From: Fusobacteria bacterium ZRK30
GTDB lineage: Bacteria; Fusobacteriota; Fusobacteriia; Fusobacteriales; Fusobacteriaceae
Length of the DNA: 64,000 nucleotides
Assembly (NCBI GenBank): GCA_024628785.1
Contig: CP102405.1
Coordinates: 1,364,001-1,428,000 of the forward strand
Reading direction: 5' to 3'
The position numbers and the translations under genes are program-made. The notes under the pieces are model-generated. The model saw only the letters and a program-made list of their open reading frames with translations. It was not told the DNA's origin and searched no databases. This document shows, piece after piece, positions 37,555-58,367 of this stretch. The first letter of the stretch is position 1. Every line of letters begins with the position of its first letter.

Positions 37555-37567
37555 GAAGGAGCTGGAT

Positions 37568-38503
37568 ATGCAAAACGTAGAAATTCTTTTAAGCAATGAA
37601 AAACCTAAGAAAAGATTTTGCATAAAAAGGTTAGCAGGTAAAGGAAAGCCCTATGGTTTTATAGGGCCCCTCAGCCTCCTACTGTTTACTTTTTATGTGA
37701 TTCCTATTTTTCTTTCAATATACTTTAGTTTTACAGACTATAACATAATAAAAAATCCAAAATTTATAGGCTTTTCAAACTATAAAAACCTTCTTTTGGA
37801 TAAAACATTTAAAGCATCTCTGAAAAATACTTTTTTATTTACATTGGGAGTAGTTCCTGCTCAGACTATATTTTCTTTATTCATGGCTAATTGGCTGGTG
37901 AGCAGGGGGAAAAGCAGACTGACAGAATTTGTAAAGGGAGCTATGTTTATTCCTGTGATCTCTTCTATGGTATTAGTAAGTATTGTGTGGAGGATACTAT
38001 TAAATGGAGAAGGATCTCCCCTCAATATGATCCTTAATATATTAAATATAACTCAGCCTAACTGGTTAGGAGATTCGTCTATAGTGTTATTTGTTCTTAT
38101 GGGAATAACAGTATGGAAGAATACAGGTTATTTTATGATCCTATATATCGCCGGGTTGATGGAAATTCCTAAAAATTATACAGAGGCTGCCAAGGTAGAC
38201 GGAGCAGGCAGGTGGAGTGTTTTTTATCATATAACTCTGCCGTTACTAAAACCTACAACAATAATGGTAGTGTTTTTAGGGATGGTCTGGTCACTTCAAA
38301 CATTTGATCTTATCTATACGTTGACAGGAGGAGGGCCTGGAAATGCTTCTATGACCCTTGTCCTCCATATATATAACAATGCATTCAAAAATTTAAATGC
38401 AGGGTATGCCATGACAATAGCCAATATATTGCTTTTCTTTTCGGCTATTGCAGCAATAGTTCAAAAAAGTTTTTTAAAAAAAGAAAAATCAGAAGTTTAT
38501 TAG
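37568..38503 (+). CDS. Sugar ABC transporter permease, MalF type
   Basis: 311 residues. A basic cytoplasmic head precedes the first helix (SLLLFTFYVIPIFLSIYFSF), about six helices in all, with EAA loop YTEAAKVDGAGRWSVFYHIT. GGAG lies 7 nt upstream of the start. It forms the channel together with the protein encoded 9 bp downstream. Confidence 0.92.
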   Translation: MQNVEILLSNEKPKKRFCIKRLAGKGKPYGFIGPLSLLLFTFYVIPIFLSIYFSFTDYNIIKNPKFIGFSNYKNLLLDKTFKASLKNTFLFTLGVVPAQTIFSLFMANWLVSRGKSRLTEFVKGAMFIPVISSMVLVSIVWRILLNGEGSPLNMILNILNITQPNWLGDSSIVLFVLMGITVWKNTGYFMILYIAGLMEIPKNYTEAAKVDGAGRWSVFYHITLPLLKPTTIMVVFLGMVWSLQTFDLIYTLTGGGPGNASMTLVLHIYNNAFKNLNAGYAMTIANILLFFSAIAAIVQKSFLKKEKSEVY

Positions 38504-38512
38504 GAGGAAAGG

Positions 38513-39313
38513 ATGAAAAAACAATTAGGCAGGCTGATTTTAATATTAATCTCCAGCTTTATGATAATTCCGTTTCTCTACATGTTTATGACATCTCTAA
38601 GGGTAACTTATACGGCTTATAACTTTAAGTTTGCTTTAGATGATTTAACATTGAGAAATTACAGGGAAATTTTTTACAACACAAGTTTTATAGTTTATTT
38701 TTTTAATAGTTTATTTATCTCCCTCAGTGGAGTAGTGTTAAATGTGGTATTCAGTGCCATGGCAGGGTACGCCTTTGCTAAACTTGAGTTTAAGGGGAGG
38801 GAAAAGATATTTTTCTTCATGTTATTGACCCTTATCATACCTTCCCAGGTAACCCTCCTGCCCCTCTATGTGATAATGAGACATCTAGGGTGGTTAAACA
38901 CTTATAAGGCATTGATACTTCCCCTTCCCACAGCTGTGGGAGTATTTATAATGAGGCAGAGTATCTTAAAAGTTCCCAGAGATCTTATGGATTCTGCCAG
39001 AATAGATGGGTGTTCAGAATTTAAGATATTTATGGAGATAGTACTGCCCCTTATAAAACCAGCAATAATAGCACTTTCAATATTTACATTTATAGGAGCG
39101 TGGAATGAATTTTTGTGGCCACTTATAGCTACTACATCGGATTCTATGAGAACCCTTACAGTGGGAATGGCCAGTATGAATGCCCAGTATACTGTGAATT
39201 ACGGGTTGGTCATGGCAGGAGCTACCATGACATTTTTACCTTCGTTTATATTTTATATCCTCCTTCAGAGACAGTTTGAAGAGGGGGTGGCACTATCAGG
39301 ATTAAAGGGATAG
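38513..39313 (+). CDS. Sugar ABC transporter permease, MalG type
   Basis: 266 residues, six helices. EAA-loop equivalent MDSARIDGCSEFKIFMEIVL, and the C-terminus QFEEGVALSGLKG is characteristic of MalG-type proteins. As with the other two sugar systems in this window, no ATPase gene accompanies it, implying a shared MsiK/MalK-type ATPase elsewhere. Confidence 0.92.
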   Translation: MKKQLGRLILILISSFMIIPFLYMFMTSLRVTYTAYNFKFALDDLTLRNYREIFYNTSFIVYFFNSLFISLSGVVLNVVFSAMAGYAFAKLEFKGREKIFFFMLLTLIIPSQVTLLPLYVIMRHLGWLNTYKALILPLPTAVGVFIMRQSILKVPRDLMDSARIDGCSEFKIFMEIVLPLIKPAIIALSIFTFIGAWNEFLWPLIATTSDSMRTLTVGMASMNAQYTVNYGLVMAGATMTFLPSFIFYILLQRQFEEGVALSGLKG

Positions 39314-39348: not shown

Positions 39349-40422
39349 GTGGAAGAGGTAATTGATCTTATAAATTATGTATTCAGAACCGGCAGGGGAG
39401 AACTTCCCCACACGATGGAGAAGGAGTTCCCATTACTTCTTTCACCTAAAAATAGAGAAAATATGAGGATAATGAAAGAGGAACAAAAGATTATTTCTGT
39501 TGTGAACTTTCTCCCCCAAAAGATCCTCATAGAGGGGACACCTGTATCGGTAGGATCTATAGGGGCTGTATGTACCCATCCTGATCATAGAGGGAGGGGA
39601 TATTCTTCGAGAGTTTTAAAAGATGTAGAAAATAGGATGGAGGAGATAGGAGTAAATCTATGCCTTATATCCAGCACGAGAAATTTGTATAAAAACTGGG
39701 GAGCCAGTAAGGTAAAAAATTGCAGGAGATACAAAATTTATGCTGGTCTTCCGGCTTTAAAATTTATTGTTAGAGAATATAGGGAAGAGGATCTTTTGTT
39801 TCTCAAGAAAATCTATAACTCTCAAGGGACTAGGTATTTAAGGCAGGATAGAGATTTTGAAACTCTTATAGATTCAGGAACCTTTCCCTTTGGAGATACA
39901 TCGTATAAAAGGTATGTATTGGAAGATGAAGATGGTCTAAGGGGATATATAATCCTGAAAGAAACACCTGAAAGAATAGAAGTAAAGGAAGCAGTAGGAG
40001 ACAAGAGTGAAATATTTTATGCTCTGGCTCTTTTAGGAGATCAATTAGGAGTGGATAAAATTGATTATATTCTACCTCATGGAGAAATAGCTCCTGCAGG
40101 GTATCTAGGAGAAGAGGAGTATCTTTCGGGAGTTTTAAAGATAGTAGACTTTGTAGGGTTCATAGAGGAATTAAAACCATACTTTAGTCAATATCTTTCA
40201 GATGAAAAAGTAGAGTATTTTAAAGCTGAGGAAGAAAATGGGAAATATCAACTGAGTTTAGGATCAGAAAAATTGGAAATAGAATCCCATAAGGAACTCC
40301 TTAAATTAATTTTTGAAAAAAAAGAAGATAAAAAAAGTATAGATGAAGGGAAATTGGATGAGTTAATAGACACAATATTTCCACTTCCATTTCCATGGAC
40401 AGAAAATTTAAATTACCAATAG
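39349..40422 (+). CDS. GNAT-family N-acetyltransferase (Eis-like two-domain type)
   Basis: 357 residues from GTG 39349 (AAAGGA 6 nt upstream). The N-terminal GNAT core has VGSIGAVCTHPDHRGRGYSS for acetyl-CoA binding and the NLYKNWGASKV segment. A second GNAT-like half and a C-terminal SCP2-like piece follow. The frame is open upstream to about 39280 and encodes a plausible missing first strand (IETIEVRGTKENE), so a non-AUG start such as ATT 39301 is possible. Substrate unknown; the operon suggests amino-sugar or glycan chemistry. Confidence 0.8.
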   Translation: MEEVIDLINYVFRTGRGELPHTMEKEFPLLLSPKNRENMRIMKEEQKIISVVNFLPQKILIEGTPVSVGSIGAVCTHPDHRGRGYSSRVLKDVENRMEEIGVNLCLISSTRNLYKNWGASKVKNCRRYKIYAGLPALKFIVREYREEDLLFLKKIYNSQGTRYLRQDRDFETLIDSGTFPFGDTSYKRYVLEDEDGLRGYIILKETPERIEVKEAVGDKSEIFYALALLGDQLGVDKIDYILPHGEIAPAGYLGEEEYLSGVLKIVDFVGFIEELKPYFSQYLSDEKVEYFKAEEENGKYQLSLGSEKLEIESHKELLKLIFEKKEDKKSIDEGKLDELIDTIFPLPFPWTENLNYQ

Positions 40423-40431: not shown

Positions 40432-42147
40432 ATGAATATTCAATATAAACTTTATAATTCAGCATTCAAACACATAAATGGCACCAGTCTTCCTGTGGAA
40501 GATAAATTAAATTTGAGGGTGTTAAAGGGAGAAAAATTTGCATTTCAGATAGCCCTAACCAGTGAAGAAAGTATACTGCTTTCTCTGGGACCTCATAACC
40601 ACATAGGTTATAAAGGATTGAAAAAAAGGGTAAGAATAGACCTTGAAAAAAGAGAAAACGCAGACCTTAAAGGATATTTTCTGGGATATGTATTGGATGA
40701 TGATTCAAAGACCCTCATAACAGATCCCATATTGAAGAAGGAGTACCTATATAATGAAGCAGGTAAACCGACTATGATCTGGGTAGAGGGAAAAGTGGAT
40801 AAAGAATATTGTGGAGATAACCTGAATATTACCATAAATTTATTTGGTCAGGAAGGGTATGAGACGGAAATAAAGGAGAAGATCATAAACTTAGATATTG
40901 CTGTAATGGACGTAGTGCTTCCTGAGTTGAAAGAGTCGGATTTTCATCTGGATCTCTGGCAGCACCTTTCATCCTGGGCAAGGATGTATCAGGTGGAGTT
41001 TTGGAGTGATGACCACTTCAAGATAATAGAAAATTATACAGCAGAACTGGCTTCACTGGGAGAAAAGGTGATCACTGTGGTAGCTTCTGATTTTTCTTGG
41101 GAGGGACAGGGATGCTTCCAGATAGAGGAAAATTCTTCAAACCTGTTTGAACATAATATCATTGGAGTAAAAAAAGATATGGAAGGAAAGATACAGTGTG
41201 ATTTTACCGCCCTGGAAAGATATTTGGAGATTTGTTTTAAATATGGGATGGAAAAGGAAATTGATATCTTCGGTCTTTTGGCGAGCTGGCAGAGGACAAA
41301 TTTTGGAAACCCTCTAAAGGATTATGATGATTATATCAGGATAAGTTTCTTTTCTGAAGAAAGTGGAACCCATGGCTACATAGACAATAAAAAAGATTTG
41401 GGAGAATATATCAGACAGATATTTAAATTTTTTAATGAAAAGAACCTTATGGACAGAGTAAGGGTAATCAGTGATATGCCTAAAAATCCCGAGTACTTTA
41501 AAAAATGGTCAAAATTTTTAAAAGATTCAGCCAAAATGGATCTTCTTATAAAAACTGCCCTTCATGAAGACAGTTTTACCGATAGATTGGATGGAATTTC
41601 GGATATATCTCTTTCTCTGCCTCTATTATTAAAAAGTAAAAATATTTTAGATGAGATAGAAGAAAAAATAAAAGGGAAATTAACCTGGTATGTATGCTGG
41701 TTCCCGGATAAATTAAACCATTTTATAAGTTCACCACTGATGGAGAGCAGATTAACAGGTTGGTACTCCTACTATATGGGACTCAATGGTTTTTTAAGGT
41801 GGGACTATGCACTCTGGACAAGCAAGCCATTTGAAAATATCAGCTATAAACATCCTAGATGGAAGGCAGGAGATATGTTCTTTGTCTATCCCGGGAAAGA
41901 TATGAAACCCATAAGATCTATAAGGTGGGAAAATCTGAGGTTTGGAATACAGGATCAGGAGATAATGAAGATGGCTGAAAAAAAAATCGGAAGGGAAAGA
42001 ATAGAGACTCTTATGGTGGAAGTTTTAGGAGATAAAAAAGAGATGAAAGCTACAGAAGAATTTTCTGTAGATATGAATTATTCTGTAGACTATAAAAAAT
42101 ATATGGTTATAAAGGATAAACTTATGAAAGTATTGACTAACAACTAA
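40432..42147 (+). CDS. DUF4091 (GH123-like) glycoside-hydrolase-type protein
   Basis: 571 residues without a signal peptide. The N-terminal part is beta-rich and the C-terminal TIM-barrel part shows DUF4091/GH123 hallmarks: DFHLDLWQHLSSWARMYQVE, SWEGQGCF, a late NGFLRWDYALWTSKPFE segment, and WENLRFGIQDQEIM. GH123 enzymes are beta-N-acetylgalactosaminidases using substrate-assisted catalysis. Specificity here is inference. It is the last gene of the third sugar operon, 9 bp after the GNAT gene. Confidence 0.75.
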   Translation: MNIQYKLYNSAFKHINGTSLPVEDKLNLRVLKGEKFAFQIALTSEESILLSLGPHNHIGYKGLKKRVRIDLEKRENADLKGYFLGYVLDDDSKTLITDPILKKEYLYNEAGKPTMIWVEGKVDKEYCGDNLNITINLFGQEGYETEIKEKIINLDIAVMDVVLPELKESDFHLDLWQHLSSWARMYQVEFWSDDHFKIIENYTAELASLGEKVITVVASDFSWEGQGCFQIEENSSNLFEHNIIGVKKDMEGKIQCDFTALERYLEICFKYGMEKEIDIFGLLASWQRTNFGNPLKDYDDYIRISFFSEESGTHGYIDNKKDLGEYIRQIFKFFNEKNLMDRVRVISDMPKNPEYFKKWSKFLKDSAKMDLLIKTALHEDSFTDRLDGISDISLSLPLLLKSKNILDEIEEKIKGKLTWYVCWFPDKLNHFISSPLMESRLTGWYSYYMGLNGFLRWDYALWTSKPFENISYKHPRWKAGDMFFVYPGKDMKPIRSIRWENLRFGIQDQEIMKMAEKKIGRERIETLMVEVLGDKKEMKATEEFSVDMNYSVDYKKYMVIKDKLMKVLTNN

Positions 42148-42294: not shown

Positions 42295-42534
42295 ATGCAA
42301 GAAAAGGTAGAATTTATTAACGCATGTCCATGATGCACTAAGTTTGAGGTCTTCGTGGAAGATTATGCAAGAAAAAAAGGAATAACAGCTAAAATTTATA
42401 AAGCAGGGAAAGACTTCGATTATTTAAAAAAATACGGAGTTGTAATGAAATCGATACTTATTATCAATGAAACAAAAAAATACCAGACATTGACCGAAGA
42501 GATAATAAAAAAAGCAATAGATGAGGCGGTTTAA
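42295..42534 (+). CDS. saoT: Thioredoxin-like selenoprotein (CPUC motif), SaoT type
   Basis: 79 residues if UGA at 42331-42333 is selenocysteine: EFINACP-U-CTKFEVFVEDYA, then YGVVMKSILIINE, the beta-strand and pseudo-cis-Pro region of small thioredoxin-fold (TM0996-type) proteins. The redox motif is Cys11-Pro-Sec13-Cys14. A hairpin GTCTTC/GAAGAT with loop GTG (42349-42363) begins 15 nt after the UGA, as expected of a bacterial SECIS. The stop codon is 1 bp before the permease start. It probably passes electrons or metal-thiolates within the operon. The symbol follows NCBI-style naming from memory. Confidence 0.82.
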
Positions 42535-42535
42535 A

Positions 42536-43597
42536 ATGATAAAGTTTTTAGAAGAAATATTGAGAACTTCATTTGAAATTTTAAATTCAGCATCTATATG
42601 GTTGATATTTAGTTTTTTATTGGCAGGATTTTTAAGAAATATACTAAATCCTTTGAAATTCCAAAAGATGCTGGGGAATACAAAACTATCTTCAATACTT
42701 AAAAGTACCCTATCTGGAATGCTTCTTCCCATATGCAGCTGTGGAGTTATACCTCTCGGTATGAGTATGTATTTTTCAGGAGCCTATCTGGGGCCTGTCT
42801 TAGCCTTTATGACATCAACTCCTATGATCAATCCTGTGGCAGTTTTATTAGCTTTTGGACTATTGGGGCCAAAGATAGCTGGTATCTATGTTTTAACAGG
42901 GTTTTGCCTGCCGTTTTTAATTGGAATAATTGGAAATAAATTTGGAAAAGGTGAACTACATGCCCCTGGTATGGAGGAGTTTATCGAATCAGATTACGAT
43001 GATGACAGAAGTTTTAAGAAAAAAATTATAGATGGATTTAACTGGGCATTTAACGATTTGGCCCTTGTTGTGAGTAAATATGTGATCTTAGGTATGGTTA
43101 TGGCCGGATTTTTATTCACTGTTTTTCCTAAGGGGTATATAGAAAAGTATTTAGGAGATCCAAGTGTGTTGTCTCTTGGGAGTATAACTATCTTAGCAAT
43201 GATAATGTATGTGTGTGCTGTTGGTCATATTCCATTTATTGCTGCCCTGGTTGCCAGTGGAGCTGCCCCCGGTGTGGCTGTTACATTTTTAATGGCAGGT
43301 ACTGCAACAAATCTACCAGAACTACTCAGTATGTATAAACTTATGGGGAAAAGAACGGTTATAATCTATTCTTTAACTATGGTTATATCATCGCTGGGAG
43401 TAGGATATTTAACAAATATTTTATTATCTGATTTTAAACCAGTGATCGATTTCGATAAAAATTTAGGTTCTATTAAAGCTGCTAATTTTTTACTTATTGA
43501 ACCACCGGAATACCTTAAATATCTGTGTTCTATTATAATTATTTTACTGGCGGTAAAAGCTATTTATCCTACGGTAAGAAAGAGAGTGATAGCATGA
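42536..43597 (+). CDS. saoE: DUF318/ArsP-like efflux permease, SaoE type
   Basis: 353 residues from ATG 42536 (AGGCGG just upstream; an earlier in-frame ATG at 42521 lies within saoT). Eight or more helices in two repeats. The conserved LPICSCGVIPLGMSMYFSG segment has the CxC pair shared with ArsP-type organoarsenical exporters, followed by TSTPMINPVAVLLAFGLLGP and GHIPFIAALVASGAAPGVA. It likely exports the metal(loid) product. It overlaps the next gene by 4 nt (ATGA). Confidence 0.85.
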   Translation: MIKFLEEILRTSFEILNSASIWLIFSFLLAGFLRNILNPLKFQKMLGNTKLSSILKSTLSGMLLPICSCGVIPLGMSMYFSGAYLGPVLAFMTSTPMINPVAVLLAFGLLGPKIAGIYVLTGFCLPFLIGIIGNKFGKGELHAPGMEEFIESDYDDDRSFKKKIIDGFNWAFNDLALVVSKYVILGMVMAGFLFTVFPKGYIEKYLGDPSVLSLGSITILAMIMYVCAVGHIPFIAALVASGAAPGVAVTFLMAGTATNLPELLSMYKLMGKRTVIIYSLTMVISSLGVGYLTNILLSDFKPVIDFDKNLGSIKAANFLLIEPPEYLKYLCSIIIILLAVKAIYPTVRKRVIA

Positions 43598-44064
43598 AAA
43601 AAAATGTTAAATTATGTCTAAGTAGACAAAATATCATATTACTTATTATCTTTTTTATTGGATTTATCTTTTATATGTATTCTTCACAAGAAGGAAATCA
43701 AGAAGACATAGATCAAAAAAATCCATTATTGAAAGTGTTTCAAAGTAAATATTCAAATAAGGTCATTCTTATGAAAGAGGGAGATGTTACAAATGATGGA
43801 ATTGAAGATTTGATAGTTATCTATGATATATCCAAATCGGAAAAAAGGATGGTTATTGTTATGGGAAGAACCAACACTTTAACAAATAGTGTAAAAGCTC
43901 CCATAGAAAGACAGAATATAAAATTTAAAAATATTGATGAGAAAGATCAAATGGAATTTATAGTCTCTGGGTATAAGGGAAGTAATCTAGGCTATGCAAT
44001 ATATAGGATAGAAAACAGTAGGATCGTAGATCTCTTTGGTGAGGGTATGGATCAATGTTGTTAA
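43594..44064 (+). CDS. saoC: Membrane-anchored Cys-Cys-COOH protein, SaoC type
   Basis: 156 residues from ATG 43594, coupled to saoE by ATGA. One N-terminal helix (IILLIIFFIGFIFYMYSS), then an extracytoplasmic domain with DVTNDGIEDLIVIYD, resembling an EF-hand/FG-GAP Ca-loop. It ends exactly in Asp-Gln-Cys-Cys, a C-terminal vicinal dithiol suited to binding a soft metal. I recall homologues ending in Cys-Sec. Here both positions are Cys codons followed by TAA. Confidence 0.75.
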   Translation: MKKNVKLCLSRQNIILLIIFFIGFIFYMYSSQEGNQEDIDQKNPLLKVFQSKYSNKVILMKEGDVTNDGIEDLIVIYDISKSEKRMVIVMGRTNTLTNSVKAPIERQNIKFKNIDEKDQMEFIVSGYKGSNLGYAIYRIENSRIVDLFGEGMDQCC

Positions 44065-44093
44065 ATAAATAAAAAATACAAAAGGAGAACAAA

Positions 44094-45146
44094 ATGAAAA
44101 AATTTATACTAGGGTTATCATTACTGGCACTATTAGGTTGTGGGGAAAAAAAAGAAGAGGATTATACGGTTAAACTAGGTTACTATAACTGCGATCATAT
44201 GACTGCATCGGTTATTGCTAAAGATGCTGGAATATTTGATGAGATGGGCCTTTCGGTAGATATCAGCGGGAATGGAAAAGTTCCTCAGGCAATGGCTGCG
44301 GGGCAAATGGATGTTGGATATATAGGAGTAAATAATGTATTTAGATCGCAACTTAAAGGGGCACCACTTGTAATAGGGGCAAATAACCATAAAGGGGGAT
44401 CATTTTATTTAGTTGTTGCAAACGATGTTGAAAAACCTGAAGATTTAATTGGTGAAAAACTTGCTATAGGGACTCATCCTGAAAGATCAACTGGATGGAC
44501 ACAGATTGCAAAGAGTCTAAACCTGCCAGTAGATGGAAAAAACTATCAAGGGATTGATATCGGGTCATCAACAGATGCGTTGACAACTCTTAGAATGGGA
44601 GAGATCAAAGGGTTTACAGCATGTGATCCATGGGCATCAATGGCAGAATATCAAGGTGTTGGAAAGATTATGGGAACTGAAAATAAACTATTAAATGGTG
44701 AATGGGGAGTATGTTGCACATATACTTTGAATAAAAAATTTATAGAAGAATACAGAGGTTTAGCTAAAAAAATGATATTAGCTCATGCAAAAGCTATTGA
44801 ATATATCTATGAAAATCCTTTAAAATCAGCTAAGATTTTTGCCGATAACTACAATGTTCCGTTGGAGGTTGCTATAAGTACAATCTATAAAAAAACTGTA
44901 GGGGAAGGAAGAACTCTAACATGGAAACTTGATCCTCAGGAGATTAAAAATGAATTAGAGTGGGCACAGGAAAATGGATTTACTCCTAGAGAAGTTAAAT
45001 ATGAAAATATTGTGGATGAATTAATTTATAATGAAGCTAATGTTCCTGATTTTGATAGATTTATAGCTGAAAAGATCGAGAAAAATTTTCCATTGGATAT
45101 GGGTTTTGACTCATGGTATGCAAAAGCTCAGGAATTAGATAAGTAA
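44094..45146 (+). CDS. NitT/TauT-type ABC substrate-binding lipoprotein with cysteine-rich ligand site
   Basis: 350 residues with lipobox LLGCGEK (Cys16). The SsuA/NrtA-type fold is recognisable (VKLGYYNCDHMTASVIAKDA; GQMDVGYIGVNNVFR; TDALTTLRMGEIKGFTACDP). Mature-protein cysteines sit where such proteins hold their ligand: Cys33 (YNCDH), Cys177 (TACDP) and the pair Cys207-Cys208 (GVCCTY). This suggests a soft-metal or organometal ligand rather than a sulfonate. It precedes a second, smaller binding protein, a permease and an ATPase. Confidence 0.85.
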   Translation: MKKFILGLSLLALLGCGEKKEEDYTVKLGYYNCDHMTASVIAKDAGIFDEMGLSVDISGNGKVPQAMAAGQMDVGYIGVNNVFRSQLKGAPLVIGANNHKGGSFYLVVANDVEKPEDLIGEKLAIGTHPERSTGWTQIAKSLNLPVDGKNYQGIDIGSSTDALTTLRMGEIKGFTACDPWASMAEYQGVGKIMGTENKLLNGEWGVCCTYTLNKKFIEEYRGLAKKMILAHAKAIEYIYENPLKSAKIFADNYNVPLEVAISTIYKKTVGEGRTLTWKLDPQEIKNELEWAQENGFTPREVKYENIVDELIYNEANVPDFDRFIAEKIEKNFPLDMGFDSWYAKAQELDK

Positions 45147-45148
45147 AA

Positions 45149-45880
45149 ATGAAAAAAATTAATCTAGTATTTATTATATTATTTATTGGGGCATTTCTCC
45201 TGCCAAAAGAAAAAAGAATGGAAAAACCACTAAGAATTGCCAGCGGTAAGGATACAACAGGCCTTTTACTCAATAGACTCCTACGTGAAAATGTTGAATT
45301 TCAAACAGTAGTTGGAGAATATGAATTACAGGATTGCTGAAGTTCGACAGCTCAGTGGGCACTGAGTAGTGATGTACTGGATATAGCTTTCCTATGTGAT
45401 GATGCTGTAATTTCATTCAAAAAAAATACAGAATTTAAAAGTTTAGGAAGTGTAATAAAAAATTCAGACATAGTTGTAAAAAATAAAGAAACTCCTAAAA
45501 TGATCGCATACGAAGGGAAAAAACAATATCAAAAAAAAATAATCCAAAAATATAAAATCAAATATCCTGTAAAGGCTAATTCTATTCCTATATTATTGGA
45601 AAGAGATGTAGTTGATGCAGCTATATTAGATGGGATTAAGGCTATTACCATAACAGGGAGCTATGAAGAAATCTACCAAGATTACACTACATATAATATG
45701 GTAGTCAGGAAAGCTGTAATAGAAACTAAAGAATTTAAGGAGTTTATTAAAAAATATAATGAAGTGGCAGATGAATTAAATGATGAGAAATTATATCGAA
45801 ATGAAGTAAAAAATTATTTAAAGGAGGGGAAATGGCCGAAGCATGTCTCTACACCAAAGTTTCAAAAGATCAAAATTTAA
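45149..45880 (+). CDS. Small ABC substrate-binding selenoprotein (Cys63-Sec64)
   Basis: 243 residues if UGA at 45338-45340 is selenocysteine. The two open parts are in one frame with a continuous fold: signal anchor, RIASGKDTTGLLLNRLL, YELQDC-U-SSTAQWALSSDVLD, then IAFLCDDAVIS and the C-terminal lobe. The Cys-Sec pair sits in the ligand loop. The hairpin CTCAGT/ACTGAG with loop GGGC (45351-45366) starts 10 nt after the UGA. It may correspond to the (seleno)protein family I recall as SaoB; this assignment is less certain than for its neighbours. Its 3' end overlaps the permease start. Confidence 0.78.
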
Positions 45881-46635
45881 TAAAGACTAAGATGAAAAAT
45901 ATATGTAATAGATCAATTGCATTTATAGGGATCTTAACTGTATGGCAGATAATGTCATTACATTATAACAATGAATTATTGCTCCCCTCACCTATTATCA
46001 CAATTAAAGAATTTTTTAATTGTATAGTAGATGTAGAAGTATTAAAAAACATGGGAATTACAATGGGCCGTGTGTTGAGAGGATTTTTATTATCTCTTTT
46101 ATTTGGGCTTCCCCTTGGATTTTTAATGGGTTATTTTAGACAGGTTGAAAAGGCCATGGGTGGGATTATTGATGCAGTGCGTCAAATCCCGGTTATGGCA
46201 TGGGTTCCATTGACAATTGTATGGTTTGGTATTGGAGACGGACCTACTCTATTTTTAATAGCATTTTCAGGAGTATTTCCTATAATACTAAATACCCTAG
46301 AAGGGGTAAAGGGAATTTCATCTGACTATTATAATGCAGCTAGGAGTATGGGGGCTAGTAGATTCAGCCTGTTTAAAGATGTTACCCTTCCTGCTGTTGT
46401 TCCGGATATACTGACCGGAGCCAGGATTTCTATCAGTACAGGGTGGATGTCGGTTATATGAGCGGAGTTCATAGCGACAAGTGCCGGGTTCGGTCACTCA
46501 ATGGTAGAAGCACAAGCTTATATGCAGACAGAAAGGTTAATCGCTCTGATGATGTTAGCTGCAGTAGTGGGTTATACAATAGACAGGGGACTTTTATTGA
46601 TAAATAAAAATCTAACCAGCTGGAGGGAAATATAG
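45832..46635 (+). CDS. saoP: ABC transporter permease selenoprotein (Sec210), SaoP type
   Basis: 267 residues if UGA at 46459-46461 is selenocysteine. The SsuC-type permease has helices from about 25, an EAA loop (YYNAARSMGASRFSLFKDV) and DILTGARISISTGWMSVI-U-AEFIATSAGFGHSM, which aligns with the SsuC helix usually reading WxxxVAAEM. The frame then runs to TAG 46633-46635. The hairpin GTGCCG/CGG(T)CAC with loop GGTT and a bulged T (46481-46497) closely resembles the E. coli fdhF SECIS apex. Start 45832 follows a strong GGAGGGG; ATG 45892 is an alternative. Confidence 0.8.
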
Positions 46636-47384
46636 TGGAAATAAAAAATATATCTAAAGTATTTTCCTCAAAGGGGGAGGAAAATACTGTGCTCCAAAAT
46701 GTAAATTTAACCGTTAATAAGGGGGAATTTATAACTTTATTAGGACCGTCTGGATGCGGGAAAACAACCTTATTGACTATGATGGCAGGATTTCAAAAAC
46801 CTACCTCTGGTGAAATTTGGTTAGGTGATGAAATGGTAACGAAACCATCACCTAAAAAGGGATTTGTATTTCAAAATTATGCACTTTTTCCCTGGATGAC
46901 AGTAAAGGAGAATATACTTTATCCCATGAAACAACAGAAATTAGGAAAAGATGAGATGGAAAAACGGTTTGAAAAATTAATAGAGATAGCCCATCTTGAA
47001 GGGAAGGAAGATCTATATCCCAAGGAATTATCCGGAGGAATGAAACAAAGGACAGCTTTTGTAAGGGCCCTGGCAGGTAATCCTAAAATTTTACTCTTAG
47101 ATGAACCATTGGGGGCAATAGATTTTCAGATGAGAAAGTCTATCCAGGTACAGCTGGAAAAGCTCTGGCAGGAAACTAAGATCACTACTGTAATGGTTAC
47201 CCATGATGTAGAAGAAGCGCTCTATCTCAGCGACAGGGTGATAGTGATGTCTAAAAATAGAGGAGAGATCATAAAAGATTTTAAAGTTCAGATGGAGAGG
47301 CCTCGTAACAGAGAATTTAAGGAATATAAAGATTATAAAAAAGAACTAGAAAAATTATTAGAATTGGCATTAAAAGGAGTATAG
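46635..47384 (+). CDS. saoA: ABC transporter ATP-binding protein, SaoA type
   Basis: 249 residues, NitT/TauT class. Walker A GPSGCGKTT, Q-loop FVFQNYALFPWMTV, signature LSGGMKQRTAFVRALAG, Walker B ILLLDEPLGAID and the switch His in VMVTHDVEEAL. GTG start overlaps the permease stop by 1 nt (TAGTG). It energises the two-binding-protein importer of this operon. It has no in-frame UGA. Confidence 0.93.
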   Translation: MEIKNISKVFSSKGEENTVLQNVNLTVNKGEFITLLGPSGCGKTTLLTMMAGFQKPTSGEIWLGDEMVTKPSPKKGFVFQNYALFPWMTVKENILYPMKQQKLGKDEMEKRFEKLIEIAHLEGKEDLYPKELSGGMKQRTAFVRALAGNPKILLLDEPLGAIDFQMRKSIQVQLEKLWQETKITTVMVTHDVEEALYLSDRVIVMSKNRGEIIKDFKVQMERPRNREFKEYKDYKKELEKLLELALKGV

Positions 47385-48038
47385 GTGTATACAAAACAAG
47401 AATTTTTAGAACTGGAATTTGAAAATTATACCAGTCAAGAACTGTATTTAGAACGAAGATATAAAGATTTAAAGGGGAAATATCAAGATATCAGACTTTT
47501 TATTATGGAGTCTGTAATTGAGTCTAAAACTTCTTTGAAAGATATAAAAAATAAATTAAAAAATAAATATCAAGATATAGATGATATTTTGATAAAGATG
47601 CAGAAAAAAGGAATATTTGTAGCCGATGAGGATGTTAAATTTATATATCCTGTTTCAGCCCTGCCTACATCTCACAGAATAAAAAGAAAAGATGGCAAAG
47701 AATTTTATTCTATGTGTGCAATAGATTCAATAGGAACTCATTTTACTTTTCATCAAGATATTGAAATTAATTCTAGATGTTCCGAAACAGGAGAAAGTAT
47801 CAATTTAAAATTATCCAATGGAAAACTGATTTCACACTATCCCAAAGATCTGCATATACTTCATGTGGATTTAAACAATCATACTAACTGGGCTGGAAAC
47901 TGCTGAAATATTATGAACTTCTTCCGTGGGGAGAAAGAACTAAAAAACTGGATGAACAAAAATAATAACCAAGACGGGGTATACTGTCTTCCGGTAAAAG
48001 ACGCATTTAAGGTGAGTAAATTGCTGTTTGAAATATAA
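47385..48038 (+). CDS. saoL: MerB-like organometal lyase selenoprotein, SaoL type
   Basis: 217 residues if UGA at 47904-47906 is selenocysteine; MerB is about 212. The MerB catalytic set is present: Cys111-Ala-Ile-Asp114 (MerB Cys96/Asp99), structural Cys132 (SRCSETGE) and Cys173, with Sec174 next to it (NWAGNC-U-NIMNFF). This aligns with the FCCHVHFF of MerB. The distal frame NIMNFFRGEKELKNWM...GVYCLPVKDAFKVSKL is the normal MerB C-terminus. The hairpin TTCTTCC/GGGAGAA with loop GTG (47919-47935) starts 12 nt after the UGA. GTG start directly after the ATPase stop, AAAGGAG upstream. Likely cleaves C-Hg or similar bonds. Confidence 0.85.
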
Positions 48039-48063: not shown

Positions 48064-49074
48064 ATGACTTTAATGGAATATATAAACAAAGAGGAGAGAG
48101 GTTACCTCCTACCATTTATGGGAGCTAATGGAGCTATTATGACAGGAAAACCCATGGAAGATATATATACCTCTCCTAAAGAGCAGTTGATACTAGCAAA
48201 GAAGATGGATGAAAAATTTCCTGGTGACTTTATCTATGCTTTAGATGAAGGAAATATATTTTGTGATGTTATGGGAGTTGCTCTCAAAAAACCAGAATAT
48301 GATTTTTCCATGGTAATAGATCATCCGATAAAAACTGTAGAGGATTTAGAAAAATTGGAAGTTCCTGATCCATATATTAACAAAAGGATGAAAACTAATT
48401 TGAAATCGTTAAATCTTATTTCAGAAAATATAGATAAGCCACTGTTTGTATCCCTCCAGGGGCCATTTACTATGGCTGTACAGTTAGCTGGAGCCACAGG
48501 ATTACTCAAGGCAACTATAAAAAATCCTGACTTTGTAAAAAAACTTTTGGAGTTTACAGGGGAGGTAGTGGATAGGTATGCAAAGGCTATAGTAGAAGCA
48601 GGGGTAAATATGATATCTATAGCGGAGCCGTCGACAGTTATGCTGGCACCAAAGAAGTTCCCTGTGATGGTAGTAGATAATTTAAATAAAATTTTTAAAG
48701 ATTTAAACTGCTGGAAATGTGTGCATATATGCGGGAATACAACTAAGATTTATCCTTATATATTAGAAGCTCAAATTGATGCATTTAGTTTTGATCAGAT
48801 AATGGATCTAGAAGAGGTTATAGAAAATTTTCCTAAAGATAAAGTTGTTATAGGAAACTTGGATCCTGTATATCTTCTCGGAAGAGGGAGTGTAGATGAG
48901 GTGGCTGATAAAACCGCTGAATTACATCACAAGATGAAAAAATATAATAATTATCTTATGGGGTTTGGATGTTCATGTGCTAATACTGCTCCTACAGAAA
49001 ATTTAGAGACTGTATCTAAATGGGGAAGAACTAGTTATGAAGAGATAAGAAATTTTGTAGAAGATAATAAATAA
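48064..49074 (+). CDS. UroD/MtaA-family methyltransferase (1)
   Basis: 336 residues, TIM-barrel of the uroporphyrinogen decarboxylase/cobamide methyltransferase family. The Zn-thiol site typical of MtaA/MtbA is visible: CVHICGNTTKIY (His-x-Cys) and the late Cys in MGFGCSCANTAPTEN. Such enzymes move methyl groups between a corrinoid protein and a thiol. It follows saoL after 25 bp with a good ribosome site, so it may be co-transcribed with the selenoprotein operon. Confidence 0.88.
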   Translation: MTLMEYINKEERGYLLPFMGANGAIMTGKPMEDIYTSPKEQLILAKKMDEKFPGDFIYALDEGNIFCDVMGVALKKPEYDFSMVIDHPIKTVEDLEKLEVPDPYINKRMKTNLKSLNLISENIDKPLFVSLQGPFTMAVQLAGATGLLKATIKNPDFVKKLLEFTGEVVDRYAKAIVEAGVNMISIAEPSTVMLAPKKFPVMVVDNLNKIFKDLNCWKCVHICGNTTKIYPYILEAQIDAFSFDQIMDLEEVIENFPKDKVVIGNLDPVYLLGRGSVDEVADKTAELHHKMKKYNNYLMGFGCSCANTAPTENLETVSKWGRTSYEEIRNFVEDNK

Positions 49075-49123
49075 AATATGTTTGGCAGATGGGATTATAA
49101 CAATATCAAAGTAGGTGATGAGG

Positions 49124-49918
49124 ATGATTAAGGTCGAAGTTGTTTCTGGTTTTTTAGGAGCCGGGAAAACAACTTTTATAAATAAGAGATTGAAAGAGCT
49201 GAAGGAAAAATTGAGGGAAGAAAAAATAGTTTTGATTGAAAATGAATTTGGAGATATATCCATAGACAGTGAATTTATAATGGAAGGGGTAAAGATAGAA
49301 GAGATATCCAGTGGGTGTATCTGCTGTGTTTTAAAGGAAAACTTTAAGGAATCCCTGGAAAAAATAATAGAGAATGATATCGACAGGATCATAATTGAAC
49401 CTACAGGTTTGGGACTGCTGGGAGAAATTTTAAAGATATTGAAAAGTGAAAAAATATCTCAAAGATGCGAAATTGTTGCGGTAACTACGGTTATTGACGG
49501 AAAAAATTATATGGAACAGGTGGAGATATTCGGTAGTTTTTTCATGGATCAAATAGAAAATGCCGAAACCATCTATATAAGTAAAACAGACCATATGGAT
49601 ATTGAAATAGTTTCTGAGGTAGAAGAATCACTGAAAGAGATAAATTCCAAGGCAAAAACTGTTTTTGAGACTATAGATATAAAAAGTATGTCTATAACGG
49701 ATTTTGAGATAGACATAGAAAGATTAAAGCAGATATTAGAAATTTTATCCTCTGAGCAGTATGGGAAGGTCCTAAGAGGAAAGGGTTTTTTGGGGAATTA
49801 TTCATTTAATATTGTAAATGGAGAATATGAACTAGTGGAAGAAAGGGTGAAAAAAAACAATAAATTAATTCTCATAGGTGATTTAGACAGAGGAAAGATA
49901 ACAAAATTATTTAAATAA
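49124..49918 (+). CDS. CobW/COG0523-family GTPase (metal or cofactor chaperone)
   Basis: 264 residues from ATG 49124. P-loop VVSGFLGAGKTTFINKRL, the family's metal-binding motif SSGCICCVLKENF (CxCC) and the switch segment IIEPTGLG. The C-terminal CobW domain is short. Such GTPases deliver metals to target proteins. Here the neighbours suggest zinc for the methyltransferases or a corrinoid/metal-related task, which is inference. It is the last gene before the gene-poor stretch at 49919-50808. Confidence 0.88.
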   Translation: MIKVEVVSGFLGAGKTTFINKRLKELKEKLREEKIVLIENEFGDISIDSEFIMEGVKIEEISSGCICCVLKENFKESLEKIIENDIDRIIIEPTGLGLLGEILKILKSEKISQRCEIVAVTTVIDGKNYMEQVEIFGSFFMDQIENAETIYISKTDHMDIEIVSEVEESLKEINSKAKTVFETIDIKSMSITDFEIDIERLKQILEILSSEQYGKVLRGKGFLGNYSFNIVNGEYELVEERVKKNNKLILIGDLDRGKITKLFK

Positions 49919-49930
49919 GGAGAAAAAGAC

Positions 49931-49966
49931 CACTAAAAACTAGTAAGAAAATCCTAGTTTTTAGTG
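49931..49966. terminator. Perfect inverted repeat after the CobW gene (possible terminator)
   Basis: CACTAAAAACTAG and CTAGTTTTTAGTG, 13-bp perfect stem with a 10-nt loop, 12 bp after the CobW stop codon. A distal T run is lacking, so it may be a rho-assisted or regulatory hairpin. Its 3' end abuts the promoter of repeat copy B. Confidence 0.5.
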
Positions 49967-49992
49967 ACAAGTCGGGGAAAAAATGGTATAAA
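49964..49992 (+). promoter_or_regulatory. Candidate promoter of repeat-element copy B
   Basis: GTGACA (49964-49969), 17-bp spacer, TATAAA (49987-49992), in the same position relative to the micro-ORF as the promoter of copy A. Confidence 0.45.
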
Positions 49993-50288
49993 TTATGTAA
50001 ATAAATTTTTAAAGGAGAAGGACTATGTTTAAATTAAGATTCAATTGAGCCTGAATAGGTTATAAACTTCTGGATGAAGTCATGATGAAATTTTTAGAAT
50101 CTGAAAAAATTATATATTAGGTAGACCTATTGCTTCAATATTATAAACATATATTTCTTTTCACTCTTTAACTTTCAACCCATTTTAAAATTATGATGGA
50201 TATAAATAAATATATTAACGAGAAATTTTGACCTTAATATTTTATATATACCCTAAATAATTATTTTCGGAACAACTAGTTCCAACAA
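49979..50288 (+). repeat. ~300-bp dispersed element, copy B
   Basis: Partner of 35303-35615. Hairpin GGAAC/GTTCC at 50269-50283 has a loop unrelated to that of copy A, so the stem rather than the loop is kept. Downstream, TTTTTTRATGCAAAAATATA occurs twice (about 50370 and 50444) and once in copy A. Confidence 0.7.
50025..50120 (+). CDS. Micro-ORF with two in-frame UGA codons (putative UxU peptide), copy B
   Basis: ATG after AAAGGAG, reading MFKLRFN-U-A-U-IGYKLL and on to a TAG at 50120; UGA codons are at 50046-50048 and 50052-50054. The hairpin ACTTC/GAAGT with loop TGGAT (50066-50080) lies after the second UGA as in copy A. The two peptides share start, length, the UxU pair, KLLDEV, LESEK and the stop, but 9 of the 11 differing codons change the amino acid. 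Selection on the peptide is therefore uncertain. Confidence 0.35.
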
Positions 50289-50462
50289 TCATTATAAAAA
50301 GAACAACAAATAAACAATACAATATTACAACTAGTTATATAAATTAGTTAAAATAGAAACCTTTATATTTTTTAATGCAAAAATATAAAAAATCACAATA
50401 CATATGAAACTATTAATTTATAGTAGTTATTTATGTCACCTTTTTTGATGCAAAAATATAAA

Positions 50463-50808
50463 AATGAACTAAATAACTAAAAAAATAGAATGTAGATATT
50501 ATGCACACATAGATAAAGAAACCAAAGGTGAAGTGAAAGAAAAAAGCTTACTCACGAATTTGACAAAGACTAAGTAGAAACAGATTAGAACGTTAAGAAA
50601 AAAGAGCGAGTACACAAAAAATATCTGAAACTTAGTGAGATTAGTATGGTTAATAACGAAAAGGTTGTAACTTTTAAATCTAAAGGAATGCTGACATTGT
50701 AATTTCATAACAATCTCAATACATCTGACTAAATTTAACTACAGAGTTATGTTTATAACTCTAGGTTTCAGTTATGTGTAAAAAATAAAATAAAAAAAGG
50801 GAGAAAAA
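50463..50808 (+). other. Gene-poor leader upstream of the corrinoid cluster
   Basis: No gene supported. A degenerate frame from about 50489 (ECRYYAHIDKETKGEV..., with several stops) may be a relic. A perfect hairpin AGAGTTAT/ATAACTCT with loop GTTT lies at 50743-50762, about 45 bp before the corrinoid-protein start. It has no following T run and could act in the mRNA leader. I see no cobalamin-riboswitch core. Confidence 0.4.
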
Positions 50809-51456
50809 ATGACTAAAAAAGAATTATTTGAAGAAATTAAAAACAATTTAATTGAGATGGAAGAAGAAGTTGTAGAGGAACTATGTAAAAAATCACTTGA
50901 AATAGGAATACCGGCAAAAGAAACTATCCAGGAAGGTTTGATTGCAGGAATGGAAGTTGTAGGTCAGCTGTATGAAGAGGAAGAATATTTTCTGCCTGAA
51001 GTATTGATCTGTTCAGATGCTATGAATATAGGAATAGACGTATTAAAACCTCATTTAGAAGGAGATGTATCTAGCGATAAAATAAGAGCAGTGATAGGTG
51101 TAGTAGAAGGAGATACCCATGATATCGGAAAGAACTTGGTTAAAATCATGTTAGAAGCCGGAGGTATAGAGGTCCATGATCTAGGAAGAGATGTTGTATT
51201 AGATGAGTTTGTAAATAAAGCAAAGGAAGTAGATGCTCATTTTATTATTATGTCTACCCTCATGACAACTACCATGGAAGGGATGAAAACAGTTATTGAA
51301 AAATTAAAAACCGAAGGACTAAGAGATTCAGTAAAGGTTGCCATAGGAGGAGGGCCTATCTCCCAAAGGTTTGCAACTGAGATCGGAGCAGATCTGTACA
51401 CTAAGGATGCCAATGAAGCTGTCAGAAAGATAAAAGAAATTCATGAGGCGGCATAG
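50809..51456 (+). CDS. Corrinoid (B12-binding) methyltransferase subunit, MtaC/MtbC-like
   Basis: 215 residues. The N-terminal helical cap (about 1-85, EGLIAGMEVVGQLYEEEEYF) and the Rossmann B12 domain carry GVVEGDTHDIGKNLVKIML, where His104 is the lower-axial cobalt ligand. MSTLMTTTMEGMK and GGGPISQRFA complete the pocket. It carries the methyl group between the methyltransferases around it. It is the first gene of a run where stop and start abut (51456/51457). Confidence 0.94.
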   Translation: MTKKELFEEIKNNLIEMEEEVVEELCKKSLEIGIPAKETIQEGLIAGMEVVGQLYEEEEYFLPEVLICSDAMNIGIDVLKPHLEGDVSSDKIRAVIGVVEGDTHDIGKNLVKIMLEAGGIEVHDLGRDVVLDEFVNKAKEVDAHFIIMSTLMTTTMEGMKTVIEKLKTEGLRDSVKVAIGGGPISQRFATEIGADLYTKDANEAVRKIKEIHEAA

Positions 51457-52515
51457 ATGGAAGTAAAAAAGGATATATTGACATCTAAAGAAAGAGTTAT
51501 GGCGTTTTTACAGGGTAAGAATATAGACAGAATTCCGTGTATGCCCATAGTAACATCAAATGCATCTCATTTGATAGGCAGAACTATCAATGAATTTCAA
51601 CTAGATCCGAAGATTATGGCTGACTCCTATATTGCTGCATATGAAAGATATAAGTATGATTTATCGTATTTATTTACCAATACCTCCTATGTTGCAGAAG
51701 CCATGGGACAGAAATTAGTCTATTATGACGATGAACCAGCATGCACCCATAATCCTATTATACAATCAAGGGAAGATCTGAATAAGATTAAGATTGCAGA
51801 TAAAAATGACGGGAAATTTCCGATCTTCTTTGAAGCTCTGGATATATTAAATGAAAAAGTCGGAGATGAAGTGATTTCAGCTGTATGTTTTTCCGGTCCG
51901 TTATCTACTGCTGCTACTTTGAGAGGAACCCAGGATTTTGTAAAGGAGATGTATAATGATCCTGAGTTTTGTATGGATTTACTCAAAATGACAACCGAAA
52001 GCTGTAAAAATTTTATGAAGGAATGCATAGATCATAATGCACTGCCTATAATTTTAGAGCCGATCTCTTCTGGAAGTATACTAAGTCCTAAATTATATAA
52101 GAAATTTTCATCACCATTTACCAAAGAATTAGTGGACTTAGCTCATGAGATGAACTCCCTTATAGCTCTTCATATCTGTGGGAAAACACATAAAATTATC
52201 GATCTTATGGCAGATACAAAAGCAGATATTTTAAGTATAGATATCTGTGATTTGAATGTTGCCAGGGAAAAGGTAGCCGGGAAATCAGCAATACTCGGAA
52301 ATATAACGCCGGCAGATGAATTATTATTTGGAACAAGGGAAGATATAATGAAGGTCTGTAAAAAAGTATTACAAGAGATGGAAGGATATGAAGGTGGTTT
52401 TGTATTGTCTTCAGGGTGTGAAATTCCAAAAAAAGTACCATTTGAAAATATAGACGCAATGATGGATGCAGCGAGAAGTTATGGTGCTTATGATTTTAAA
52501 AGTGAGACCAAATAA
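51457..52515 (+). CDS. UroD/MtaA-family methyltransferase (2)
   Basis: 352 residues. Zn site LHICGKTHKII and the late Cys in GGFVLSSGCEIPKKVPFENI. ILEPISSGSILSPKLYKKFS is the barrel segment typical of corrinoid-dependent members. It starts on the base after the corrinoid-protein stop, so the two probably work as a pair (methyl donor or acceptor). It shares its closest visible motifs with the protein at 55903-56937 (FSGPLSTAATLRGTQDFVKE versus AGPFSTAATVIGTEKFLKD). Confidence 0.9.
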   Translation: MEVKKDILTSKERVMAFLQGKNIDRIPCMPIVTSNASHLIGRTINEFQLDPKIMADSYIAAYERYKYDLSYLFTNTSYVAEAMGQKLVYYDDEPACTHNPIIQSREDLNKIKIADKNDGKFPIFFEALDILNEKVGDEVISAVCFSGPLSTAATLRGTQDFVKEMYNDPEFCMDLLKMTTESCKNFMKECIDHNALPIILEPISSGSILSPKLYKKFSSPFTKELVDLAHEMNSLIALHICGKTHKIIDLMADTKADILSIDICDLNVAREKVAGKSAILGNITPADELLFGTREDIMKVCKKVLQEMEGYEGGFVLSSGCEIPKKVPFENIDAMMDAARSYGAYDFKSETK

Positions 52516-52563
52516 TTTTGAGCAGAAGATAAAAAGATTTTTTATCCTAAATATGGAGGGAAT

Positions 52564-53553
52564 ATGACTGAAAAACAAAGACTGATAGATGTCTTAAATG
52601 GAAAAGCTACAGACAGGCCGCCTGTTATTTGTCCGGGAGGGATGATGAATGCTGCGGTAACAGAAGTTGTAGAAGGGATGAAAAAAAATCATAACAGTGA
52701 CGTAGATGCAATGGTAAAAGCTGCTGTAAAAGTACATGAAATAACAGGGTTTGAAAATTATGGAGTCCCTTTTTGTATGACAATAGAGAGTGAACCTTTT
52801 GATGTGGAAGTGGATCTGGGGAGTAAATTAGTTGAACCGCGAATAACTAAATATAATGAGGGTATCTTAAACCATTTAGATGAGATAAAAGTAAAACATT
52901 CTAAAAGGGCTTTGGTTGTGCTAGAAGCAATATCAAAGCTAAAAAATGATGAAATCCCGGTAATCGGTAATATAACAGGTCCCATGAGTGTGGTGACATC
53001 TGTTATTGAACCAACAGACTATTATAAGATGATGAGAAAAGATAAAGTTATGGCTATGAAATTTTTAGAAGTCGTTACAGATTATTTGATTCAATTTGCC
53101 ACTGAGATGATAGATAGTGGTGCTGACCTTATAGCTATGTCCGATCCAAGTGCTACAGGGGAGATCTTGGGGAAGAAAAATTTTGAAGAATTTATGATAC
53201 CTATGTATAAAAAGATCTCAGAAGCAGTACATGAAAAAGGAGTAAAAATAATTATTCATATATGTGGCAAGAGTAAGAGTATTTTAGAAAGCTTAAATAA
53301 ATCTGGAGCAGATTCCCTCAGTTTTGACTCAGCAGTAGGGATAAGGCAGGCTAAAGAAATAATCCAAGCTCCAATTATGGGGAATGTGAGTACTCAGCTT
53401 TTAGATCAGGGAGAGAATGAAAAAGTTAAATTACATACAGAGGCAGCTATAAAAGATGGAACCAGCATTGTATCACCAGCCTGTGGACTGGCCATGAGTA
53501 CATCTATTAAAAATTTAAAAGTAATGACAGATACAGTAAAGAGTAAAGGGTGA
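52564..53553 (+). CDS. UroD/MtaA-family methyltransferase (3)
   Basis: 329 residues. Zn site IIHICGKSKSILESL and a late Cys in IVSPACGLAMSTSIKN; PVICPGGMMNAAVTEVVEG replaces the usual N-terminal substrate loop. This N-terminus (PGGMMN) resembles MtaA-like proteins found with methylamine or methoxyl systems. It ends in UGA used as a true stop, followed by the reactivase gene 6 bp on. Confidence 0.88.
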   Translation: MTEKQRLIDVLNGKATDRPPVICPGGMMNAAVTEVVEGMKKNHNSDVDAMVKAAVKVHEITGFENYGVPFCMTIESEPFDVEVDLGSKLVEPRITKYNEGILNHLDEIKVKHSKRALVVLEAISKLKNDEIPVIGNITGPMSVVTSVIEPTDYYKMMRKDKVMAMKFLEVVTDYLIQFATEMIDSGADLIAMSDPSATGEILGKKNFEEFMIPMYKKISEAVHEKGVKIIIHICGKSKSILESLNKSGADSLSFDSAVGIRQAKEIIQAPIMGNVSTQLLDQGENEKVKLHTEAAIKDGTSIVSPACGLAMSTSIKNLKVMTDTVKSKG

Positions 53554-53559
53554 GTATGG

Positions 53560-55050: not shown

Positions 55051-55059
55051 GAGAAAAAT

Positions 55060-55776: not shown

Positions 55777-55902
55777 ATGTAGTTAATTTATATATCGCTT
55801 TCGGTAGAATAAAATTTGTAGAAGGGATATCGCCTTTAAAATTAAAATAAAACTAGGTAAGTATTTTGAACTTGTAAATCAGTAAGAAGAGGGAGAGAGA
55901 GT

Positions 55903-56937: not shown

Positions 56938-56953
56938 AAACAGGGGGATAGCA

Positions 56954-57715: not shown

Positions 57716-57736
57716 AAAATAAAGGGGGAAGATGGG

Positions 57737-58177: not shown

Positions 58178-58213
58178 CTAAAGATAGAAACTTTTAGAAG
58201 TAGTTATGATAAA

Positions 58214-58259: not shown

Positions 58260-58367
58260 CTGCAAATATTTAGATGAAAAAGCAAAATATTACTGTATTT
58301 AACTAGTCGTAAATTAAAAATAAAATAACGATTTATATAATAAAAATAAACTTTAGGGGGATAAAAA

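Follow-up and report, generated by a model that had tools for sequence, protein, structure and literature searches.

A selenocysteine-assisted organometallic (SAO) operon with four selenoproteins, set within a corrinoid methyltransferase locus of a Fusobacteriota genome

The 64,000-nucleotide stretch analysed here (the window; positions 1,364,001 to 1,428,000 of contig CP102405.1, assembly GCA_024628785.1) comes from Fusobacteria bacterium ZRK30, and positions 42295-48038 on its + strand hold eight closely spaced genes. All eight exceed the curated cut-offs of NCBIfam equivalogs of the selenocysteine-assisted organometallic (SAO) system when UGA is translated as selenocysteine (Sec, U), and the Sao family names given in a sequence-only reading proved right:

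42295-42534, + strand: saoT, a thioredoxin-like selenoprotein with a CPUC motif (NF040730, 104.7 bits, cut-off 65; PF13192)
42536-43597, + strand: saoE, an ArsP_1/DUF318-type efflux permease (NF040736, 529.5 bits, cut-off 325)
43594-44064, + strand: saoC, a membrane-anchored protein with a Cys-Cys-COOH terminus (NF040734, 168.6 bits, cut-off 80)
44094-45146, + strand: saoX, a substrate-binding lipoprotein of the Cys form, with the motif YYNCDH (NF040735, 478.9 bits, cut-off 300)
45149-45880, + strand: saoB, a second binding protein, with a Cys-Sec pair (NF040727, 192.3 bits, cut-off 140)
45832-46635, + strand: saoP, an ATP-binding cassette (ABC) permease with Sec210 near the end of a membrane helix (NF040733, 393.6 bits, cut-off 295)
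46635-47384, + strand: saoA, an ABC ATPase (NF040729, 401.9 bits, cut-off 360)
47385-48038, + strand: saoL, a MerB-like lyase with Cys173-Sec174 (NF040728, 178 bits, cut-off 140; PF03243)

Four of these genes contain a single in-frame UGA (saoT at 42331, saoB at 45338, saoP at 46459 and saoL at 47904), beyond which the frame runs on to TAA or TAG and family homology continues; in SaoL this part is covered by the Pfam MerB match (residues 91-215). The sequence-only reading had described eight packed genes at these coordinates, four of them with one UGA and broken by standard gene calling, and this description holds, including the premature termination of the four frames by ordinary callers. Two of its points needed adjustment: both binding proteins are present, with SaoX (44094) as the Cys form and SaoB (45149) as the Sec form, and the eight genes are a cassette within a longer co-directional run (36286-63641). 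The SAO system, which is rare, was reportedly described by Haft and Gwadz in 2023 (J Bacteriol 205:e00259-22) with families NF040727-NF040736, and there is hardly any doubt that the operon is a complete example, from a Fusobacteriota genome, that includes four selenoproteins. No family member of saoD, an accessory SAO gene, was found near the window operon, and SAO membership does not require it.

A genome search for selA, selB, selC and selD, proposed earlier as a check, found all four, with selA and selD adjoining selB. One SaoX-based scan returned 76 SAO loci in named genomes of Clostridia, Fusobacteriota, Desulfobacterota, Synergistota, Actinobacteria, Chloroflexota and Brachyspira, and the Sec/Cys census was based on 80 SAO loci. 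The UGA column holds UGA or Cys in 75/75 homologues of SaoP (U48/C27), 76/77 of SaoB (U26/C50/D1) and 45/46 of SaoL (U43/C2/A1), while in SaoT the first Cys position is U in 17 and C in 56 and the middle position, the one used by the host, is U in 14. Among 28 tested genomes with a Sec-bearing SAO system, selB was above cut-off in 24, apparently split between contigs in one, and missing from three metagenome-assembled genomes. Strict pairing of all-Cys SAO with selB-less genomes was rejected, since 19 of 22 all-Cys genomes have selB. Two rumen-type metagenome-assembled genomes encode SaoP with UGA (QSVIUAEF) and no SelB reaching the cut-off, which may reflect missing contigs or an odd case.

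Each of the four UGAs is followed by a hairpin resembling a selenocysteine insertion sequence (SECIS), that of saoT being the weakest; the hairpins start 15 (SaoT), 10 (SaoB), 18 (SaoP) and 12 nt (SaoL) downstream, within the 10-19 nt claimed from the letters alone:

42349-42363, + strand: SECIS-like hairpin of saoT, stem GTCTTC/GAAGAT, loop GTG
45351-45366, + strand: SECIS-like hairpin of saoB, stem CTCAGT/ACTGAG, loop GGGC, exceeding every synonymous recoding
46480-46498, + strand: SECIS-like hairpin of saoP with a bulged U, AGTGCCG-GGTT-CGG-T-CACT, loop GGTT
47919-47935, + strand: SECIS-like hairpin of saoL, stem TTCTTCC/GGGAGAA, loop GTG

Plain minimum free energy past the UGA failed to discriminate and was superseded by a constrained hairpin test, which compared UGA with Cys copies and used synonymous recodings as controls. 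Hairpins were stronger at UGA than at Cys copies in SaoB (p=4e-9), SaoP (p=4e-6) and SaoT (p=0.011), the loci not being independent, and the 40 UGA copies of SaoL averaged -3.1 kcal/mol. The ratio of nonsynonymous to synonymous change past the UGA was 0.04-0.29 against two sister genomes that retain the UGA.

Because selA, selB, selC and selD are present, Sec alternates with Cys, SECIS-like hairpins occur at UGA copies only and selection past the UGA is purifying, we conclude with high confidence that the four UGAs encode selenocysteine. The early ends of the four frames in standard gene callers would also be expected of decaying pseudogenes with ordinary stops, for which the absence of selB or selC, or of Cys/Sec at the UGA positions, had been named as signs. 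Neither sign was found, and the UGA retention in two sister genomes, the purifying selection downstream, the alternation across dozens of genera, the SECIS contrast and the complete Sec machinery lead us to reject pseudogenes as an explanation of negligible probability. The SAO system places selenocysteine in a binding protein, a permease and a lyase of a single pathway.

The MerB-like lyase named in the sequence-only reading is borne out by the predicted fold of SaoL (MerB, E=1.9e-12) and by its equivalents of MerB Cys96, Asp99, Cys117 and Cys159, which are invariant in 46/46 homologues, with Sec174 aligning with MerB Cys160. In MerB itself, Cys96 and Cys159 are the Hg ligands and Asp99 is the residue that transfers the proton (PMC4525700). 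Against the MerB equivalog SaoL scores 58.6 bits, well under the cut-off of 193, and by this score it is MerB-like, not MerB. Across 47 SAO loci flanked on each side by 3 kb or more, SaoE, SaoC, SaoX, SaoB, SaoP and SaoA occur in all, SaoT in 46 and SaoL in 34 (absent from 13). Among 32 genomes with a SaoL-less locus, 31 have no SaoL anywhere and one has it elsewhere. The conserved core is SaoTECXBPA, and SaoL is accessory and dispensable. The double-cubane-cluster protein (DCCP) as a substitute for SaoL was unsupported (Fisher p=0.20).

Every core component but the ATPase has an invariant Cys or Cys/Sec site: Cys in YYNCDH of SaoX (a column partly set by the search pattern itself), DC[CU] in SaoB, [CU] in SaoP, CxxC in SaoT, CSC in 74 homologues of SaoE and the terminal CC in 75/75 homologues of SaoC. 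SaoP has the fold of NrtB/CmpB (26-30% identity), with Sec210 in the helix after the EAA loop, five residues short of the helix end (residue 215) and thus probably near the outer face, an orientation that we infer. SaoE is nearest to the SO_0444 Cu/Zn efflux family, under that family's cut-off. Taken together, the sites in SaoX, SaoB, SaoP, SaoT, SaoC and SaoE fit a relay for soft metals.

The best explanation of the SAO system as a whole, to which we assign a probability of about 0.55, is capture and import of soft or alkylated metals, cleavage by SaoL and export by SaoE. The cargo, a soft metal or metalloid species with an affinity for thiols and often with alkyl groups, would be captured by SaoX and SaoB through Cys and Cys-Sec ligands and would move by ligand exchange to Sec210 of SaoP for import with SaoA. 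Inside the cell, SaoL may split the bond between carbon and metal by protonolysis of the MerB type, using Cys111/Asp114/Cys173 and assisted by Sec174 in accepting the metal; SaoT would provide thiol or selenol reducing power, and SaoE would export the released metal. In this genome, SAO may protect the pool of selenium putatively recovered by the neighbouring genes against metals like methylmercury, which are very tight selenol binders. Family identity, Sec encoding, catalytic residues and the permease fold were computed, and the substrate, the order of the relay and the direction of SaoE are what we infer. For the organometal mechanism taken by itself we consider the odds even. The import, cleavage and export of an organometal proposed in the sequence-only reading stands in part: Sec recoding, the family identities, the MerB-type residues and the Sec machinery are supported, the organometal is a putative substrate, and SaoL turned out to be accessory.

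Several observations weigh against this explanation. The lack of SaoL from 13/47 loci, and from the whole of 31/32 such genomes, excludes carbon-metal cleavage as the core activity. Among the SAO neighbours, regulators or reductases of the mer or ars type are not prominent, and the commonest neighbours that are not part of the core or SaoL are SaoD (39 loci) and the double-cubane protein (38/80 loci, often directly adjacent). The presence of selB even in all-Cys SAO genomes hints that SAO is linked with selenium metabolism as such, or more broadly with the selenium trait, and no experimental test of SAO function was found in the searchable literature. The dispensability of SaoL would suit a system in which a Cys/Sec relay deals with a soft metal in inorganic form (Hg, Cu, Zn, As or similar), with SaoL as an add-on in some lineages: the seven-gene core is complete without it in many loci, SaoE is closest, below cut-off, to a Cu/Zn efflux family, and the CSC of SaoE, the CC-COOH of SaoC and the Cys/Sec of SaoX, SaoB, SaoP and SaoT are invariant. 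We regard this as unlikely, as SaoL keeps the full catalytic Cys-Asp-Cys in 46/46 homologues, and with it the Asp that is missing from MerB2-type variants, and importing an inorganic ion only to export it again makes little sense.

The locus around the SAO cassette, which the sequence-only reading overlooked, combines corrinoid methyltransferases, a glycosidase and double-cubane proteins and points to methyl-selenium metabolism:

36286-39313, + strand: sugar-type ABC importer (binding protein and two permeases)
39349-40422, + strand: GNAT acetyltransferase, with a C. difficile homologue beside a corrinoid protein and a methyltransferase
40432-42147, + strand: GH123 protein (beta-N-acetylgalactosaminidase fold) with the catalytic Asp-Glu changed to Asp-Met (PF13320, 2.8e-83; N-acetylgalactosaminidases in the PDB)
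48064-49074, + strand: UroD-family corrinoid methyltransferase (Mlp-like) with His-Cys-Cys Zn ligands
49115-49918, + strand: CobW/COG0523-type GTPase (PF02492)
50809-51456, + strand: methyltransferase corrinoid protein
51457-52515, + strand: UroD-family corrinoid methyltransferase
52564-53553, + strand: UroD-family corrinoid methyltransferase (above the PRK06252 cut-off)
53560-55050, + strand: corrinoid reductive activase (RACo/AcsV-like)
55903-56937, + strand: UroD-family corrinoid methyltransferase
56954-57715, + strand: activase for the double-cubane protein (TIGR00241, above cut-off)
58368-59531, + strand: double-cubane-cluster reductase (DCCP; NF040772, 536 bits), with a close second copy at 62484-63641

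The first methyltransferase gene begins 25 nt past saoL, and four full-length UroD-family methyltransferases have His-Cys-Cys zinc ligands of the S/Se type. Judged by gene content and these ligands, 48064-63641 appears to be organised as a type I mlp gene cluster. Clusters of this type have been linked to the use of methyl-selenide, and the legend of Fig. 5 in Kountz & Balskus lists Sao genes in some of them (PMC10418091). The methyltransferase run around the cassette plausibly serves to regain selenium from its methylated compounds. The profile for the DCCP activase was contaminated by read-through fusions, and its counts were set aside.

Within the phylum Fusobacteriota 98 genomes were covered, and the nearest named relative found there was Propionigenium maris. 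One sister species (G055) lacks SAO entirely and has GH123 and the 48064-type methyltransferase 3 nt apart, which indicates that the 5.9 kb of SAO were gained or lost as a cassette within that operon. Propionigenium maris has the double-cubane pair, rhodanese, sugar ABC importer, GNAT, GH123, methyltransferases, corrinoid protein and activase as a single unbroken run, with SAO elsewhere, outside it. Another Fusobacteriota family has the corrinoid protein and a methyltransferase orthologue (53%) after the sugar permeases, about 5 kb from GH123, and in C. difficile CD160 and a second SAO genome the GNAT, corrinoid protein and 48064-type methyltransferase are adjacent, without GH123. Close to these three genes, in C. 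difficile and in a relative, nitrogenase-like-looking proteins and an iron/cobalamin-type ABC importer were noticed by eye. A molybdopterin oxidoreductase family recurs next to SAO in 12 loci.

This setting raises the question of whether SAO is itself a selenium or organoselenium system, whose cargo would be a selenium species (e.g. a methylated compound or metal-selenide), with the methyltransferases and the double-cubane protein completing selenide formation. SAO lies here inside a corrinoid Se/S-methyltransferase locus, some of the type I mlp clusters implicated in methyl-selenide use carry sao genes, and selB occurs in 19/22 all-Cys SAO genomes against 42% of Clostridia as quoted in PMC10418091. 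SAO also coincides with the GH123-Mlp48 locus in 3/4 Fusobacteriota (p=5e-4, kinship uncorrected), and Clostridia Mlp48 orthologues fall in 2/5 SAO genomes (p=4e-4). A general linkage of SAO to mlp clusters was not found, cluster genes lying within 10 kb of SAO in only 2/80 loci, both in the host genus, and an ArsP-type exporter fits poorly in an uptake route. MerB chemistry, moreover, acts on C-Hg, C-Sn and C-Pb bonds rather than C-Se. We consider a selenium cargo an improbable alternative to the handling of soft or alkylated metals preferred above.

The GH123 protein suggests a more specific role for the block as a whole. Asp-Met replaces the catalytic pair in six host-clade GH123 copies, and Asp-Glu is present in four other Fusobacteriota and in solved PDB homologues. 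Myrosinase, which acts on S-glycosides, has likewise lost this Glu. By analogy, loss of the Glu would be expected for an S- or Se-glycoside, as a selenol leaving group would not need the acid/base residue, but an inactive enzyme or a different chemistry would explain it just as well. GH123 enzymes are beta-N-acetylgalactosaminidases. The selenium compound that dominates in human urine is 1beta-methylseleno-N-acetyl-D-galactosamine (PMC4425141, PMC5187540), and methylselenol, if released, belongs to the type of substrate that has been put forward for these methyltransferases (PMC10418091). Within the phylum, selA occurs in 10/10 genomes with GH123 against 52/98 overall (p=0.001, kinship ignored), and within one family in 4/4 against 6/33 (p=4e-4, kinship ignored). 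Another Fusobacteriota genus has a canonical Asp-Glu GH123 gene at a distance of 11-13 kb from selA, and selD and selB lie in the interval.

On these grounds the block at ~35300-63641 is tentatively proposed as a selenium-salvage locus for a methyl-selenosugar, possibly the one found in animal excretions. The sugar ABC importer would take in Se-methyl beta-N-acetylgalactosamine, the Glu-less GH123 would release methylselenol, and the zinc/corrinoid methyltransferases would remove the methyl group to give selenide. SAO would act as a guard, clearing soft or alkylated metals toxic to the selenol pool, and a leader with two Sec codons would adjust operon expression to the selenocysteine supply.

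This leader, of about 300 nt, occurs in 11 copies, all within four host-genus genomes. The host has three, two in the window and one at position 267821 of contig C1:

35325-35660, + strand: first copy of the U-x-U leader, preceding the sugar ABC/GH123/SAO run
50000-50335, + strand: second copy, ahead of the corrinoid protein operon

The third precedes a VTT/rhodanese operon; the copies stand before selenium- or sulfur-linked operons. Each element comprises a ribosome-binding site and a 31-codon open reading frame with two UGAs (M-F-K-L-R-F-N-U-A-U), after which comes a hairpin whose loop contains G. The frame has no Pfam or NCBIfam match, and the 890-bp gap holds no Rfam riboswitch. Conservation is equally strong in the 200 nt of non-coding sequence past the frame (covariation is weak), which makes a plain small selenoprotein doubtful and may point to control by RNA or leader peptide rather than a protein gene. 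From its sequence, the element is possibly a selenocysteine-responsive leader.

Elsewhere in the window, a transposase at 29600-30589 has the same translation as one at 14849-15838 of another locus (L026), where it adjoins selD, and tandem near-identical 675-residue proteins at 14726-16753 and 16931-18958 look by eye like alkylsulfatases of the metallo-beta-lactamase fold.

The SAO system is of a kind already known; new here are the evidence on its core, the Sec/Cys and SECIS contrasts and its genomic setting. In the host genus it forms a cassette within what appears to be an operon for the demethylation of methyl-selenium compounds, one that includes an altered glycosidase, and this offers testable leads. 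If the selenosugar proposal is true, the locus would hold genes by which microbes recycle the main human urinary selenium compound, and its leaders would be a first lead on selenocysteine-responsive leaders of this type.

Compared with known systems, SaoL shares with the organomercurial lyase MerB its fold and C96, D99, C117 and C159, and differs in the Sec at position 160, its own N-terminal region, its setting in an ABC import operon and its sub-cut-off score. SaoP shares the fold of the nitrate and bicarbonate permeases NrtB/CmpB, but has Sec or Cys where NrtB has Ala and would carry a different substrate. The GH123 protein belongs by domain and fold family with the beta-N-acetylgalactosaminidases, but the host clade has Met for the acid/base Glu and lacks the catalytic Asp-Glu pair. 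As in type I mlp clusters, several UroD-family His-Cys-Cys methyltransferases accompany a corrinoid protein, a reductive activase and a double-cubane protein, whereas here the sugar ABC importer, GNAT and GH123 share the operon. With the SAO system as described, the operon has in common all eight equivalogs above cut-off and Sec in SaoT, SaoB, SaoP and SaoL; it differs in that saoD is absent from the operon, in the Cys form of both SaoX and SaoC, and in being set within a glycosidase/corrinoid methyltransferase operon.

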